A stretch of 64,000 nt of DNA from Alphaproteobacteria bacterium (GTDB taxonomy: Bacteria; Pseudomonadota; Alphaproteobacteria; UBA9219): assembly GCA_019233975.1 (NCBI GenBank), contig JAFALY010000031.1:1-64000 (forward strand), read 5' to 3'. The notes beneath the pieces are model-generated. The model was not told the origin of the DNA and did no database searches. It saw only the letters and a program-made list of their open reading frames with translations. The number at the start of each line of letters is the position of its first letter. The first letter of the stretch is position 1. A program made the position numbers and the translations under genes. Shown here piece after piece: positions 1 to 6,082 of the stretch.

Positions 1-1845
1 GTTACATTGGAGGCAAAGCCACAGACCATCAATCTGGGCGATGTCAGCTTTGACGGTGCCACCTATAACGGCAGCTATGGCGCCCCTGTTTTGCATCTGA
101 AGCCAGGTGACACGTTGCATGTACATCTGATCAACCACTTAAAAGAAACAACCAACCTTCATTTCCACGGCATCCACACGTCGCCCAAGAATAATAGCGA
201 TAATATCTTTACCGTCGTGCAGCCCAATCAGGTGTTTGATTACGAAGTTAAGATTTCCCCTACCCAACCGCCCGGCCTCTATTGGTATCACAGCCATATT
301 CATGGCCAGACGGAAATGCAAACCATGCGCGGATTAAGTGGCGCGTTAATTGTCGACCCAACTACCCCAGACGCAGTGCCGATGCGCGAGAGGCTGCTTG
401 TGTTAAAGGATTACACATTCGAAACAGCACCGAACGATATTGTGAAGACCTATTATCACAAATTTGTGCAGACGATTAGTGGCCAGACAAATGTCACCCT
501 GCAAATGCACCCACATGAAAAACAATTGTTGCGCCTGACGAACCAAAGCGCGGACAACACTTCCAGACTAAGCATTACAGGGCATGCATTTTACGTCGTG
601 GCGCGTGACGGCGTTCGTCTAGGCACACCAACAACAGAAACGACGCTGAACCTACCACCCGCATCACGCGCAGATGCCATACTTGATGCAGGAGACGCAG
701 GGCAGTATAGCATCATCGCGAACGGTGTTGTCACGGGTAGCGGCGATACCAAAACAACTGACCGCATCATGGGTCAGGTTATAGTTGCCGGCGATGCTGT
801 TGACAGCCCCCCTCTGCCGGCAGGGGTGCCGCGACCCGACTTGTCCAACGCTAAGATCGACGCAGAACGCAGTGTTGTCTTTAGCCAATCCAAGGACGGG
901 ACGCAGTATCTCCTGAATGGCAAGATTTTTGACCACGACCGCATTGATATACGCGTACCGCTGGGCTCCACTGAAAAATGGACAATTAAAAACGACACAG
1001 ATGATCTGCACGTCTTTCATATTCACCAGATGCATTTTCAAGTTGTTGAGATTAACGGCGTTCCGCAAACCGATCATGTCTATCTGGATAATGTACGCAT
1101 ACCCGAACGCGGCGAAGTTAAAATTATCATCCCCTTCACCGAATCCATCATACTGGGTAAATTTGTTTACCACTGCCATGTTTTAGAACACGAAGACAAA
1201 GGCATGATGGGGGTCATTCAAGTATACGACCCCCATCATTTTGACTTTGGCGAGTGGGTCGATGATATGTGGGGTCGCATCTGTACGACCATGGGATGGA
1301 AGCATACCGCCCTTACGCTGTTCACAAAGGCCGCACCGGTCGGCACACCCGAACCAAGGCTTGATGGTCATTTTGATTTGTTCGATCAAAACGGTCAGCC
1401 AGTAACCGAGAAAACATATGAAGGGAAATACAGGCTGATCTTCTTCGGCTACACACATTGCCCGGATGCTTGCCCGACGGCGCTCGCAACACTTGATAAA
1501 ACGCTGCAGACTCTAACAGACAAGGGCCGGAACATTAGCATACAGTTTGTTTCTTTGGATCCAGAACGCGATACAGCGCCTGTGCTGAAAAGCTACCTCG
1601 GCAACTTCGCTACCCCCATGACAGGTCTGACAGGTACCCTAGAACAGGTTAACCGGTTCTCCAAAAACATGAACATACAATTTGAAAAGGTTGCCGATAA
1701 AGATGTCGATGGCGGATACAGCATAGACCATCCCGCCGCTGTCTACCTGATGGATAAACAAGGCAATTACGTCGATGACCTGTCCTATCAGGCTACACCC
1801 GAAGAATTTATCGCCTTCCTCAAGAAATATGGAGCCACGCCATGA
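1..1845 (+). CDS. Multicopper oxidase fused to a C-terminal SCO1/SenC domain (5' partial)
   Basis: Periplasmic copper protein whose open frame runs off the left edge, so the true start and any signal peptide lie outside the window. Numbering from the TTG at 7, residues 20-410 form a multicopper oxidase. The four copper-binding histidine blocks are visible: HFHG near residue 52, WYHSH near 95, HxHxMHF near 340 and HCHVLEHE at 389-396 with a following MM. Residues 450-612 form a complete SCO1/SenC thioredoxin-like domain with CPDAC (Cys485, Cys489) and the conserved His575 that together bind copper in SCO proteins. SCO proteins deliver copper to the CuA site of cytochrome c oxidase. The two domains share one reading frame with no frameshift. 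The next gene is a PCu(A)C chaperone overlapping by 4 bases, which supports a copper-delivery operon. The exact oxidase substrate is unknown; oxidation of Cu(I) is an inference. Confidence 0.9.
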   Translation, partial: VTLEAKPQTINLGDVSFDGATYNGSYGAPVLHLKPGDTLHVHLINHLKETTNLHFHGIHTSPKNNSDNIFTVVQPNQVFDYEVKISPTQPPGLYWYHSHIHGQTEMQTMRGLSGALIVDPTTPDAVPMRERLLVLKDYTFETAPNDIVKTYYHKFVQTISGQTNVTLQMHPHEKQLLRLTNQSADNTSRLSITGHAFYVVARDGVRLGTPTTETTLNLPPASRADAILDAGDAGQYSIIANGVVTGSGDTKTTDRIMGQVIVAGDAVDSPPLPAGVPRPDLSNAKIDAERSVVFSQSKDGTQYLLNGKIFDHDRIDIRVPLGSTEKWTIKNDTDDLHVFHIHQMHFQVVEINGVPQTDHVYLDNVRIPERGEVKIIIPFTESIILGKFVYHCHVLEHEDKGMMGVIQVYDPHHFDFGEWVDDMWGRICTTMGWKHTALTLFTKAAPVGTPEPRLDGHFDLFDQNGQPVTEKTYEGKYRLIFFGYTHCPDACPTALATLDKTLQTLTDKGRNISIQFVSLDPERDTAPVLKSYLGNFATPMTGLTGTLEQVNRFSKNMNIQFEKVADKDVDGGYSIDHPAAVYLMDKQGNYVDDLSYQATPEEFIAFLKKYGATP

Positions 1846-2279
1846 AACTGCACTACAAACTGCTGACATTTGCGGCCATCATATTGTTGCCCCTCGCGGT
1901 ACACGCCGCTGAAACAACCGCGTTAAAGGCCAGCGATGCCTGGGCAACAGCTTCACTAAAAGGTAGCGAAACGGCAGCGGCTTACCTCACCCTTGAGAAT
2001 ACAGGCGACAAGCCGGTCACCATCACGGATGTCGATACACCTGGCGCGCACGCCATGCTGCACAGCATGACAAATGACAATGGCGTCATGCGTATGCGCC
2101 ATGTCGACCACCTGGTTGTACCAGCGCATCAGTCCGTGAAGCTGGAGCAACACGCGCTGCACATAATGCTGATGCACATGGATGCGCCGCTAAAGGCCGG
2201 CGATACGTTGCCACTCACCTTTACACTGTCTAACGGCGATACGCTGACCGTTAATGCACCTGTGAAAGCGCAGCCATAA
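1842..2279 (+). CDS. PCu(A)C-family periplasmic copper chaperone
   Basis: A 145-residue secreted protein. Residues 1-22 form a signal peptide (charged start, hydrophobic core, VHA cleavage site). The copper-binding pattern of the family, H-M, a Met about 10 residues later, then H-x-M, is present as His70/Met72, Met83/Met85, His107 and Met109. Family members bind Cu(I) in the periplasm and work with SCO proteins to metallate the CuA centre of cytochrome oxidase. The ATG overlaps the stop of the MCO-SCO gene in an ATGA arrangement, which implies translational coupling. The stop abuts the convergent mfd stop. Confidence 0.9.
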   Translation: MKLHYKLLTFAAIILLPLAVHAAETTALKASDAWATASLKGSETAAAYLTLENTGDKPVTITDVDTPGAHAMLHSMTNDNGVMRMRHVDHLVVPAHQSVKLEQHALHIMLMHMDAPLKAGDTLPLTFTLSNGDTLTVNAPVKAQP

Positions 2280-5200
2280 TTAGGCTGTTAGAGCAGCCAA
2301 TTCGGACAACAGTTTTTTAACGCCCGCGATACGTTGTGCGTCATCATCCCAGGCCCGCATGGCAACAAGCTTGTTATCCGGTCGCGCCTTTATTGTGCCA
2401 GCCTGCTTTTGTATCCAACCGATTAGCTTATCCGGACGCGGGAAAATATCGTTGTGGAATGAGAAAACCGCACCTTTTGGTCCAGCGTCCACTTTGGCCA
2501 CGCAGGCCCTACGGCACAGGATCTTAATACCGACAATGTTCAGGAACGTCTCCACCTCCGGCGGCAAACTGCCAAAACGGTCGATCATTTCCGTTGCCAC
2601 AGATTCAATCTCTGCATCCTCAGTCACTTCTGCCAAACGGCGATAGAGACTGAGGCGCACATTCAGGTCATGCACATAGGTTTCGGGAATGAGAACAGAC
2701 AAGCCGATATTAATCTGCGGCGTCCATCTATCATCAGCCTGCGCATCTGTGCGCCCCTGTCGTGCGGCCGCAACGGCGTCTTGCAGCATCTGCTGGTACA
2801 ATTCCACACCAACTTCGCGGATCTGACCAGATTGCTCCTCACCCAGCAAATTACCGGCACCGCGAATGTCCATGTCGTGGCTGGCCAACTGAAAGCCTGC
2901 GCCCAATTGGTCAAGTGTCTGGATGACTTCTAACCGTTGCTGCGCCGTCTGTGACAATGCCGCTGTGGGCGCATAAGTCAGATACGCATAACCACGCAAC
3001 TTGCCGCGTCCAACACGACCGCGTAGCTGGTATAGCTGCGCCAGCCCGAACATGTCGGCACGGTGCAGAATAATCGTGTTGGCATTCGGCACATCAAGGC
3101 CGGATTCAACAATGTTGGTCGCCAGCAATATATCAAACTGCCCGGCATCGAACGCCGTCATGATGTCGTCCAGCTGTGTTGCCGACAGGCGACCATGCGC
3201 CGTTATAACCTTAACTTCTGGCACCAGATCACGTAGCGCAGTCGCAACACTATCCAGATCCTCAATACGCGGGCATACGTAATAACACTGACCGCCGCGG
3301 TAGTGTTCGCGCATGATCGCTTCGCGGATCACCATCGGGTCATACGGCAGTACAAAAGTACGCACCGCCAGCCTATCGAGTGGCGGCGTCGCAATCAGAC
3401 TAAGTTCACGTACGCCAGACACAGCCATTTGCAAGGTTCGCGGGATTGGCGTCGCCGTCAGTGTCAGTACATGCACTTCGGCACGCATTTCTTTCAGGCG
3501 TTCTTTTTGCTTCACGCCGAAATGCTGTTCCTCGTCGATAATCATCAAACCAAGGTTTTTAAAGCCAACTTCCTTGCCCAACAACGCGTGCGTGCCGATG
3601 ACAATATCAATGCGGCCTTCCTTTAAATCTTCCTTTGTTTGCCGCGCCTCAGCCGCGCTCACCATGCGCGACAACTGCGCGACCTGCACCGGGAAGCCGG
3701 CAAAGCGGCGTTTAAAATTATTATAATGCTGACGCGCCAGCAAGGTTGTCGGCACAACAACCGCCACCTGAAACCCAGATTGTACAGCCACAAAAGCCGC
3801 GCGCAGGGCAACCTCTGTTTTGCCGAAGCCAACATCGCCGCAGACCAAGCGGTCCATGGGTTTGCCACTGCCAAGATCATCAATTACATTTTCGATGGCA
3901 CGCGCCTGATCTTCCGTTTCCGCATAGGGGAAGCGCGCCGCGAATTCGTCATACGCTCCATCTGGTGCTTCCAGCACCTCACCCCGACGCAATTCACGCT
4001 CCGCAGCAATTTTCATCAAGGCTTCAGCCATGTCTTTCAGGCGTTTTTTGACACGCGCCTTGCGTTGTTGCCAGCCGACACCGCCAAGTTTATCGAGCGT
4101 TGCCCCCTGCTCTGCCGAGCTATAGCGTGACAGAACGTCCAGATTCTCCACGGGCACAAAGAGCTTATCACCGCCGTCGTAAACCAGTTTCACACAATCA
4201 TGCACCGTGTTCAGAACGTTGACCGCCACCAACCCGTCATAACGTCCAATACCGTGTTCAGCATGCACGACGTAATCGCCGGGGTTGAGCGACCCAAGTT
4301 CCAGCTGAAACGCCTTGGCCGCTTTGCGTTTACGCGTGGGTCGCACCAACCTGTCGCCTAGAAGATCTTGCTCTGTCACAAGCGCAAGGTCAGGCGAAAT
4401 AAAACCATGTTCAAAGCCCAGCACAACCAGCGTCACCAGTTGCGCATCACATTTCCGCGCTTCTTCCCAACTTTGCGCCGTTGCAATGCTGTTCAGGCCA
4501 TGATTGCGCAAAACACCCGCCAGACGCTCCGCCGAACCCTGACTGTAACAGGCTATCGCAACGCGACGTTGTGCGTTCTGTTGTTCTTTAATATAATGTT
4601 GCAGGGCTTCATAAACGGCGCCAACGTCCGGCTTTGCTCGTGCATCGGCAAAATCACGACCACGTTGACCGCCTGCATCCAGATACCCCACCCCTTCTGG
4701 TGCCAAAAATGGAGAGAGAGATACTACGGCACGTGAAGCCAACGCCTCAGCAATTGAGGCAGCATTGAGGTAAAGGCTGTCCACCGGCGCGGGCTTATAA
4801 GGGGCAACCATTGCCTCCCCACCTTTGTTTTTCGCTTTGGCACGTTTGGAAGCGTCATACAGGCTTTGGCGCGCCAGATAAAAATCCTCAATCTGCTGAA
4901 ACCGCGACTGCAAAGCATCGTCGACCTGATAATCCAAGAGAACAGGCGCATCTGGCAGATATTCAAACAAAGTGCCAAGGTGCGGGTAGAACAGCCCAAG
5001 CCAATGCTCAACGCCCGGAAATTTGCGACCATCACTTACCGCTTCATAAAGCGGATCGGCATCCGTCATGGCGCCAAACAACTCGCGGTACTTCGAACGG
5101 AAATGGGCGATCGTGCGCTCATTCAGCAATACTTCGGATATGGGGCCAAGGTGGAAGCTATCTGTCTTGTCCGTTGTGGTTTGCGATAGCGCATCAAAGG

Positions 5201-5783
5201 TACGGATGCTTTCAATCTCATCACCAAAATAATCAAGCCGAAGCGGCGCTTCATATCCCGGCGGGAACAAGTCAACAATACCGCCACGCACGGCAAACTC
5301 GCCGGGTTCCCGTACTGTGCCGACGCTGATATACCCGCTGGCAGATAGATAATTGCGCAATTTTTCGACCGGTAGATTTTCGCCTATCTTCGCGTCAATG
5401 CTGGACGCGGTTAAAACATCCGGCGGCAAAGTTTTCTGAACAACCGCGTTGACAGTCGTCATGATAATCGTCGGTTGTTTGAACGGCTTTTGCAGACGCG
5501 TCAACGTGGCAATGCGTGTGCCGCTGACATCCGCTTGTGGCGAAACGCGGTCATAGGGCAAACAATCCCATGCAGGGAAAGGCAAAACTTCCGTATGCGG
5601 TGAAAAGAACGCCAGCGCGTCCGTCACAACTGCCGCACGCACATCATCCTGCAGCACGGCAATGATAGGCTTGTTGCCGCTACGGCTGGCCAATTCGGCC
5701 AAAACACGCACATCATGCCCGGCGGGCGCACCCGCCAGAACATGTCGTCCGGTTACCGATGGATCAATGCCGCGCGTAAACAT
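2280..5783 (-). CDS. mfd: Transcription-repair coupling factor Mfd
   Basis: A 1167-residue ATP-dependent DNA translocase that removes RNA polymerase stalled at lesions and recruits UvrA. It shows an N-terminal UvrB-like module (about 1-350), an RNA-polymerase interaction domain (about 490-560), a RecG-like motor with Walker A GFGKTE (about residue 645) and a DEEQ box followed by HFGV, and a C-terminal TRCF domain. Length matches the family. The ATG at 5783 is chosen: the longer frame adds 16 residues with no homology-like character. This ATG also overlaps the sdhE stop by one base (TGATG), which implies coupled translation. It converges with the copper chaperone gene. Confidence 0.97.
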   Translation of the reverse strand: MFTRGIDPSVTGRHVLAGAPAGHDVRVLAELASRSGNKPIIAVLQDDVRAAVVTDALAFFSPHTEVLPFPAWDCLPYDRVSPQADVSGTRIATLTRLQKPFKQPTIIMTTVNAVVQKTLPPDVLTASSIDAKIGENLPVEKLRNYLSASGYISVGTVREPGEFAVRGGIVDLFPPGYEAPLRLDYFGDEIESIRTFDALSQTTTDKTDSFHLGPISEVLLNERTIAHFRSKYRELFGAMTDADPLYEAVSDGRKFPGVEHWLGLFYPHLGTLFEYLPDAPVLLDYQVDDALQSRFQQIEDFYLARQSLYDASKRAKAKNKGGEAMVAPYKPAPVDSLYLNAASIAEALASRAVVSLSPFLAPEGVGYLDAGGQRGRDFADARAKPDVGAVYEALQHYIKEQQNAQRRVAIACYSQGSAERLAGVLRNHGLNSIATAQSWEEARKCDAQLVTLVVLGFEHGFISPDLALVTEQDLLGDRLVRPTRKRKAAKAFQLELGSLNPGDYVVHAEHGIGRYDGLVAVNVLNTVHDCVKLVYDGGDKLFVPVENLDVLSRYSSAEQGATLDKLGGVGWQQRKARVKKRLKDMAEALMKIAAERELRRGEVLEAPDGAYDEFAARFPYAETEDQARAIENVIDDLGSGKPMDRLVCGDVGFGKTEVALRAAFVAVQSGFQVAVVVPTTLLARQHYNNFKRRFAGFPVQVAQLSRMVSAAEARQTKEDLKEGRIDIVIGTHALLGKEVGFKNLGLMIIDEEQHFGVKQKERLKEMRAEVHVLTLTATPIPRTLQMAVSGVRELSLIATPPLDRLAVRTFVLPYDPMVIREAIMREHYRGGQCYYVCPRIEDLDSVATALRDLVPEVKVITAHGRLSATQLDDIMTAFDAGQFDILLATNIVESGLDVPNANTIILHRADMFGLAQLYQLRGRVGRGKLRGYAYLTYAPTAALSQTAQQRLEVIQTLDQLGAGFQLASHDMDIRGAGNLLGEEQSGQIREVGVELYQQMLQDAVAAARQGRTDAQADDRWTPQINIGLSVLIPETYVHDLNVRLSLYRRLAEVTEDAEIESVATEMIDRFGSLPPEVETFLNIVGIKILCRRACVAKVDAGPKGAVFSFHNDIFPRPDKLIGWIQKQAGTIKARPDNKLVAMRAWDDDAQRIAGVKKLLSELAALTA

Positions 5784-6082
5784 CAGCTGACACCTTTTGT
5801 AGATGATGAAGGCGCGAACTGATGCGCACAAAGTGCCCGCATAACCTGATTATCATATTCAGGCGGTACAGGCTCTTTACCAGTCATCCAGTTGTACAGG
5901 TCAGGATCGCTTATGCCCAAAATCACTTCATATTCATCCAGTTGCGCATCGCTGTAGGCAGGCAGGTTTAAGTCAGCAAAGCTGCCCATCAGCAAATCCA
6001 TTTCGCGCGTACCCCTATGCCAACTGCGGAAGCGCAAGCGTTCCCGGCGGCGGTCTGTTGTGGATATGTCGGGGTCGGTCAT
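5783..6082 (-). CDS. sdhE: SdhE-type flavinylation factor (succinate dehydrogenase assembly factor 2 family)
   Basis: A 99-residue protein starting MTDPD. It contains the hallmark RGxxE motif (RGTRE) near residue 24 within the small helical fold of the SdhE/YgfY family, which promotes covalent FAD attachment to SdhA and FrdA. Length fits the family. An ATG at 6142 in the same frame would add 20 residues absent from the family, so 6082 is preferred. The gene lies directly upstream of mfd with a one-base overlap, an order seen in alphaproteobacteria. Confidence 0.9.
   Translation of the reverse strand: MTDPDISTTDRRRERLRFRSWHRGTREMDLLMGSFADLNLPAYSDAQLDEYEVILGISDPDLYNWMTGKEPVPPEYDNQVMRALCAHQFAPSSSTKGVS

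Follow-up and report, generated by a model that had tools for sequence, protein, structure and literature searches.

A rare fusion of a multicopper oxidase to a SCO1/SenC domain, encoded beside a PCu(A)C chaperone in an alphaproteobacterium

The window analyzed here, a 64,000-nucleotide stretch of an Alphaproteobacteria bacterium genome (contig JAFALY010000031.1), begins with a gene that joins a laccase-type multicopper oxidase (MCO) to a SCO1/SenC domain (SCO) in a single polypeptide. We conclude that this MCO-SCO fusion is a real, rare domain architecture built from known parts. It is more likely that the fusion helps the oxidase acquire its copper than that it builds a respiratory oxidase.

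An ORF scan of the window found an open frame at 1-1845 (+) with zero internal stops. It encodes a three-domain MCO (frame residues 1-411, bases 1-1233), a linker of about 45 residues (bases 1234-1365) and a complete SCO domain (bases 1366-1842). Pfam places Cu-oxidase_3 at residues 17-121, Cu-oxidase at 95-245 and Cu-oxidase_2 at 300-410, and all four His/Cys copper motifs of a three-domain MCO are present: H54-F-H56-G, W95-Y-H97-S-H99, H337-x2-H340-x-H342 within HVFHIHQMHF (residues 337-346, bases 1009-1038), and H391-C392-H393-x3-H397-x4-M402. The last of these, HCHVLEHEDKGM (residues 391-402, bases 1171-1206), is invariant in the MCO alignment; in this family the motif supplies the Cys, His and Met of the type 1 site along with type 3 His ligands. 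The SCO1-SenC match spans residues 456-589 (E 2.5e-42; 144 bits against a cut-off of 22.8), alongside a weak AhpC-TSA match to the same part. Its copper site consists of the CxxxC motif C487-P-D-A-C491 (bases 1459-1473) and the distal D576-H577 (His577, bases 1729-1731). An earlier note on this DNA had placed the oxidase copper sites and the full SCO site in one continuous frame, and the domains, motifs and unbroken frame bear this out, except that the histidine it numbered 575 has position 577 in the open frame. GC3 is similar on either side of the MCO/SCO junction (0.55 and 0.52).

Because base 1 of the window is also base 1 of assembly contig C6, in a 1.88-Mb genome of 41 contigs, the fusion frame is open at its 5' end. 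We estimate from full-length relatives that about 45 N-terminal residues are absent, including the export signal. As the contig itself starts here, the signal peptide and any upstream genes are unassembled and not just outside the window; a small CutF-like CxxxC protein, encoded before the MCO in cutFOG-type operons, would fall in this unassembled part.

The second gene (1842-2279, +) encodes a PCu(A)C periplasmic copper chaperone with a signal peptide, identified from its open reading frame, Pfam and motif. Its start overlaps the fusion stop by four bases (ATGA, 1842-1845), just as the earlier note had reported. The protein contains the PCuAC domain (E 1.3e-34) and matches H-X10-M-X21-H-X-M exactly from residue 74, and a genome search identified it as the sole PCu(A)C of its genome. 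All Pfam matches on the two genes are well over cut-off. The convergent gene that follows (2280-5831, -), read from its sequence as an mfd-like transcription-repair factor, bounds the module and is not a part of it.

In an AlphaFold2 model of the fusion, the MCO body (1-411) is followed by a helix (416-430), a low-confidence loose stretch (432-455) and the SCO domain (457-610). The mean pLDDT is 76 and the pTM 0.61, and the model does not fix the orientation of the domains. Set against solved structures by fold and by sequence, the MCO part is nearest, among the matches listed, to the Thermus laccase (2xu9/6wcn), with 29-30% identity and a TM-score of 0.84 on the target. The SCO part is nearest, among the matches listed, to Bradyrhizobium ScoI/Blr1131 (4wbj; E 4.7e-38), and none of these matches is a solved chain carrying both MCO and SCO. 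Against the CueO equivalog NF008205 the window MCO scores 134 bits with a cut-off of 525, and against CopA (TIGR01480) 105 bits with a cut-off of 479. These shortfalls are not explained by the missing N-terminus alone.

Searching other genomes for the same architecture yielded two further full-length fusions, one in a Telmatospirillum MAG (L002 5863-7932, 689 aa) and one in genome G334 (L111 7223-9205, -, 661 aa), on an 806-kb contig. All three fusions come from Alphaproteobacteria and share domain order and intact ligands. The CxxxC motifs of the other two read CGDLC and CMHVC, respectively, and both retain the copper His; loss of copper ligands in close homologues, which the earlier note would have held against its reading, is thus seen in neither. 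The architecture is rare: it occurs in two of 385 genomes sampled across the class (the window genome included), a phylum-wide sample of 398 genomes returned only those same two, and the other 32 genomes of the window's order lack it. A pattern search for close relatives across about 85,000 species genomes found one fused locus among 80. The earlier note knew of no characterized example, and we found no described MCO-SCO fusion in the literature searched, with subscription journals and InterPro architecture tables outside that search.

On the MCO tree, all fused proteins fall within a seven-member clade (support 100/99), scattered among its unfused members (G919, G010, G005 and G385), and a single origin of the fusion is not rejected (AU p 0.50). 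The fused SCO domains do not group on the SCO tree (0% of bootstraps), where a single origin is again not rejected (AU p 0.078). Since neither tree rejects it, one or several origins both fit; these sequences suggest, rather than prove, that the fusion arose recurrently. The linkers differ, with no detectable similarity between them. We also considered whether the window linker is a retained C-terminal tail of the unfused G005, G010 or G919 MCO, on the strength of WxxDM and GRxC motifs picked out by eye, and rejected this after a shuffle test (p 0.33-0.91; for L125 the anchor motif was missed, so that row compares the whole protein). No twin-arginine motif was seen by eye in fused or unfused clade relatives, which have Sec-type signals or anchors.

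Most unfused relatives outside this clade carry tails with 12-40% His+Met, compared with 7.5% overall, and G385, inside the clade, also has such a tail. In L004-L019, L047 and L126 these short tails, mostly 15-40% His+Met, come directly behind the final copper motif, where other proteins have the fused SCO; this suggests that they handle copper on behalf of the MCO. Unfused MCO and SCO genes also occur side by side. In an operon of G349 (L112 3944-9462), three tandem MCO genes are followed four bases on by SCO, all on one strand, and in G005 the MCO adjoins convergent SCO and PCu(A)C genes. The G005 MCO, the closest unfused relative, is split by a single in-frame TAG that separates domain 1 from domain 2 (L003 6361-6363, the same as in L083 and L114). 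Its halves are otherwise intact, and a pseudogene, a sequencing error or readthrough are all possible. In G010 (98% complete; L115, L123), SCO, PCu(A)C and COX2 were not found, whereas the MCO, a Cyc2-like gene and a cbb3 oxidase are present.

The clade's MCO usually belongs to a conserved gene cassette. In L002, G334 and G385, the MCO is preceded on its own strand by genes for a monoheme protein with a CxxCH motif (about 460-500 aa), for a plastocyanin-type cupredoxin and for a chemoreceptor. In G919 the cupredoxin, chemoreceptor and MCO genes form one cluster, and the CxxCH gene is truncated at the end of another contig. The cassettes span L111 7223-12616 (-) and L002 961-7932, where the MCO is fused to SCO, and L126 5324-10449 and L125 70-3519 plus L124 1-1164, where it is unfused. 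The CxxCH protein matched no Pfam or NCBIfam family. The published Cyc2 signature consists of AXPXFAR[Q/K][T/Y] before a single CXXCH, PXL after it, and a length of at least 365 aa (PMC8406198). The cassette proteins have a single CXXCH, AXPXFAxQT and PQL, at lengths of 388 (cut by a contig end) to 507, but Ala, Val, Ile or Gln occupies the Arg position; because this Arg is missing, we call them Cyc2-like only. A single-sequence fold gave a pLDDT of 31 and did not confirm a barrel. The window genome has a Cyc2-like/cupredoxin pair near bc1 genes on contig C36 and its best chemoreceptor match on C29, with the MCO at neither. We rejected a physical link of the window to either locus, as both lie inside other contigs among unrelated neighbors. 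The cassette has the appearance of a unit for electron uptake or metal oxidation that brings a taxis receptor of its own. The MCO might be the soluble terminal oxidase of an outer-membrane route of electron uptake, equipped with a chemoreceptor, in which electrons pass from a Cyc2-like monoheme barrel through cupredoxin and MCO to O2; PCu(A)C and the fused SCO would then form a dedicated copper-loading arm. We regard this larger scheme as distinctly improbable.

Which oxidases could be clients differs between the genomes. By names assigned from sequence reading, the window genome encodes an aa3 oxidase with CuA-type residues together with Cox11 and SURF1-like genes on C8, and a cbb3 oxidase on C5; it also has a separate canonical membrane-anchored SCO on C32. 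The complete genome of G334 has a single COX1/COX2 pair, which is bo3-like and whose COX2 lacks the CuA Cys/His cluster, and a genome search did not find PCu(A)C there. Since G334 keeps the fusion with no CuA oxidase and no COX1-family oxidase beyond the bo3-like one, neither an aa3 nor a cbb3 oxidase can be its client in that genome. In G010 and G919, cbb3 is the only oxidase found. A second SCO gene in G334 lies directly after a PQQ-dependent dehydrogenase gene (L154 3196-6251), a further hint that SCO has clients besides cytochrome oxidase.

Our best explanation, held tentatively and at a little less than an even chance, is that the SCO domain serves the oxidase to which it is joined as a copper/thiol chaperone in cis, with PCu(A)C as its supplier. 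PCu(A)C from the overlapping gene would take up copper and load it onto the SCO domain, at the site formed by CxxxC and His. This loosely tethered domain would then supply the MCO copper sites in cis, possibly with thiol reducing equivalents as well, and the oxidase could be filled after export under copper scarcity. The loaded MCO would reduce O2, drawing its electrons from a periplasmic cupredoxin or from cuprous or ferrous ions. The parts and their conservation are observed, whereas which way copper flows, which protein is the client and what the substrate is are inferred. Several features speak for this reading: the intact ligands of three fusions, the G334 fusion without a CuA oxidase, the extra canonical SCO and complete aa3 locus with Cox11 in the window genome, the His/Met-rich tails at the SCO site, the unfused MCO-SCO neighbors in L112 and G005, and the predicted looseness of the linker. 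Against this reading, the closest MCOs (G005, G010 and G919) work without a fused SCO, in G010 even in a genome where neither SCO nor PCu(A)C was found, the orientation of the domains is left free by the model, and the closest solved SCO, ScoI, is a CuA assembly factor. NosZ or other proteins are conceivable as SCO clients in G334. The absence of PCu(A)C from G334 means that the complete PCu(A)C-SCO-MCO relay is not common to the fusions. There is precedent in Rhodobacter capsulatus, where the CxxxC factor CutF is needed for the MCO CutO; however, CutO activity is not lowered by loss of SenC and PccA, so MCOs need no SCO or PCu(A)C in general (PMC8456105). Later work dealt with CutF as a translational copper sensor of the nascent-chain type (PMC9973294), which weakens the analogy.

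The earlier note proposed a self-contained copper-delivery module and pointed to CuA assembly. In a rival reading along these lines, the MCO would oxidize PCu(A)C-borne Cu(I) to the Cu(II) that the fused SCO needs before COX2 docking, with the aa3 oxidase as client. In the published scheme, Sco works in its Cu(II)-bound form, and copper in either oxidation state, Cu(I) or Cu(II), can be borne by PCu(A)C (PMC9145763). Because CuA assembly through Sco calls for Cu(II)-Sco and an attached cuprous oxidase could produce it, we retain this idea, though as an unlikely one. The aa3 oxidase with CuA-type residues and the closeness of the fused domain to ScoI among the matches listed agree with it, and a CuA role in the window genome is possible since its PCu(A)C is the only one. 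Set against this are the separate SCO on C32, the distance of the fusion gene from the cox locus on C8, the sister MCOs of G010 and G919 in genomes where only cbb3 was found, and the G334 fusion, kept in a genome where neither a COX2 with CuA ligands nor PCu(A)C was found. The CuA-assembly reading is weakly supported, and the idea of a self-contained module for CuA delivery is not supported.

It is somewhat less probable again that operon neighbors were joined almost neutrally, with the proteins working separately and the tether doing little. The rarity and scatter of the fusions, their dissimilar linkers and the unfused neighboring pairs would all fit, yet three lineages share domain order and intact ligands, and the single origin allowed by the MCO tree would have been kept over a long divergence. 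We doubt still more that SCO, instead of donating copper, works in thiol-disulfide exchange or electron transfer, either holding the MCO cysteines in reduced form or exchanging electrons with the MCO. Its thioredoxin fold and AhpC-TSA match, the electron-transfer cassette around the clade's MCO and the redox homeostasis discussed for some Sco proteins (PMC6307045) favor such a role, but the copper-binding His, superfluous for a pure thioredoxin, is kept in 3/3 fused domains, and the neighboring gene encodes a copper chaperone. That the frame reaches a contig end raises the prospect of an assembly or annotation artifact. This is hardly credible: the junction lies 1.2 kb into the contig, composition is even, and the independent full-length fusions in L002 and G334 make chance or misassembly very unlikely.

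How MCOs are metallated after export is unsettled, and no dedicated SCO for an MCO was found in the literature searched. The natural fusion offers an in-cis pair whose copper loading is measurable within a single molecule, with the SCO ligands present or removed. An MCO-fused SCO in a genome where no CuA oxidase was found suggests that SCO clients extend beyond cytochrome oxidase.

Each part of the module resembles a known system. Like the window protein, the Thermus thermophilus HB27 laccase and CueO-type MCOs have three cupredoxin domains and all copper motifs, but they lack an SCO domain. ScoI/SenC proteins (Blr1131, SCO1) share the entire domain with its CxxxC and His; they are usually separate and N-terminally anchored, whereas the window SCO is the C-terminal domain of an oxidase. 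The window PCu(A)C has the domain and the full H-X10-M-X21-H-X-M of other PCu(A)C chaperones, but no His/Met-rich C-terminal extension, and its gene overlaps the MCO-SCO gene. The R. capsulatus cutFOG operon likewise ties an MCO genetically to a CxxxC factor on which production of the MCO depends (PMC8456105). There, CutF is small, separate and not an SCO, CutO is Tat-exported, and CutG is CopG-like and not PCu(A)C, for which reason we dropped an analogy between CutG and PCu(A)C.
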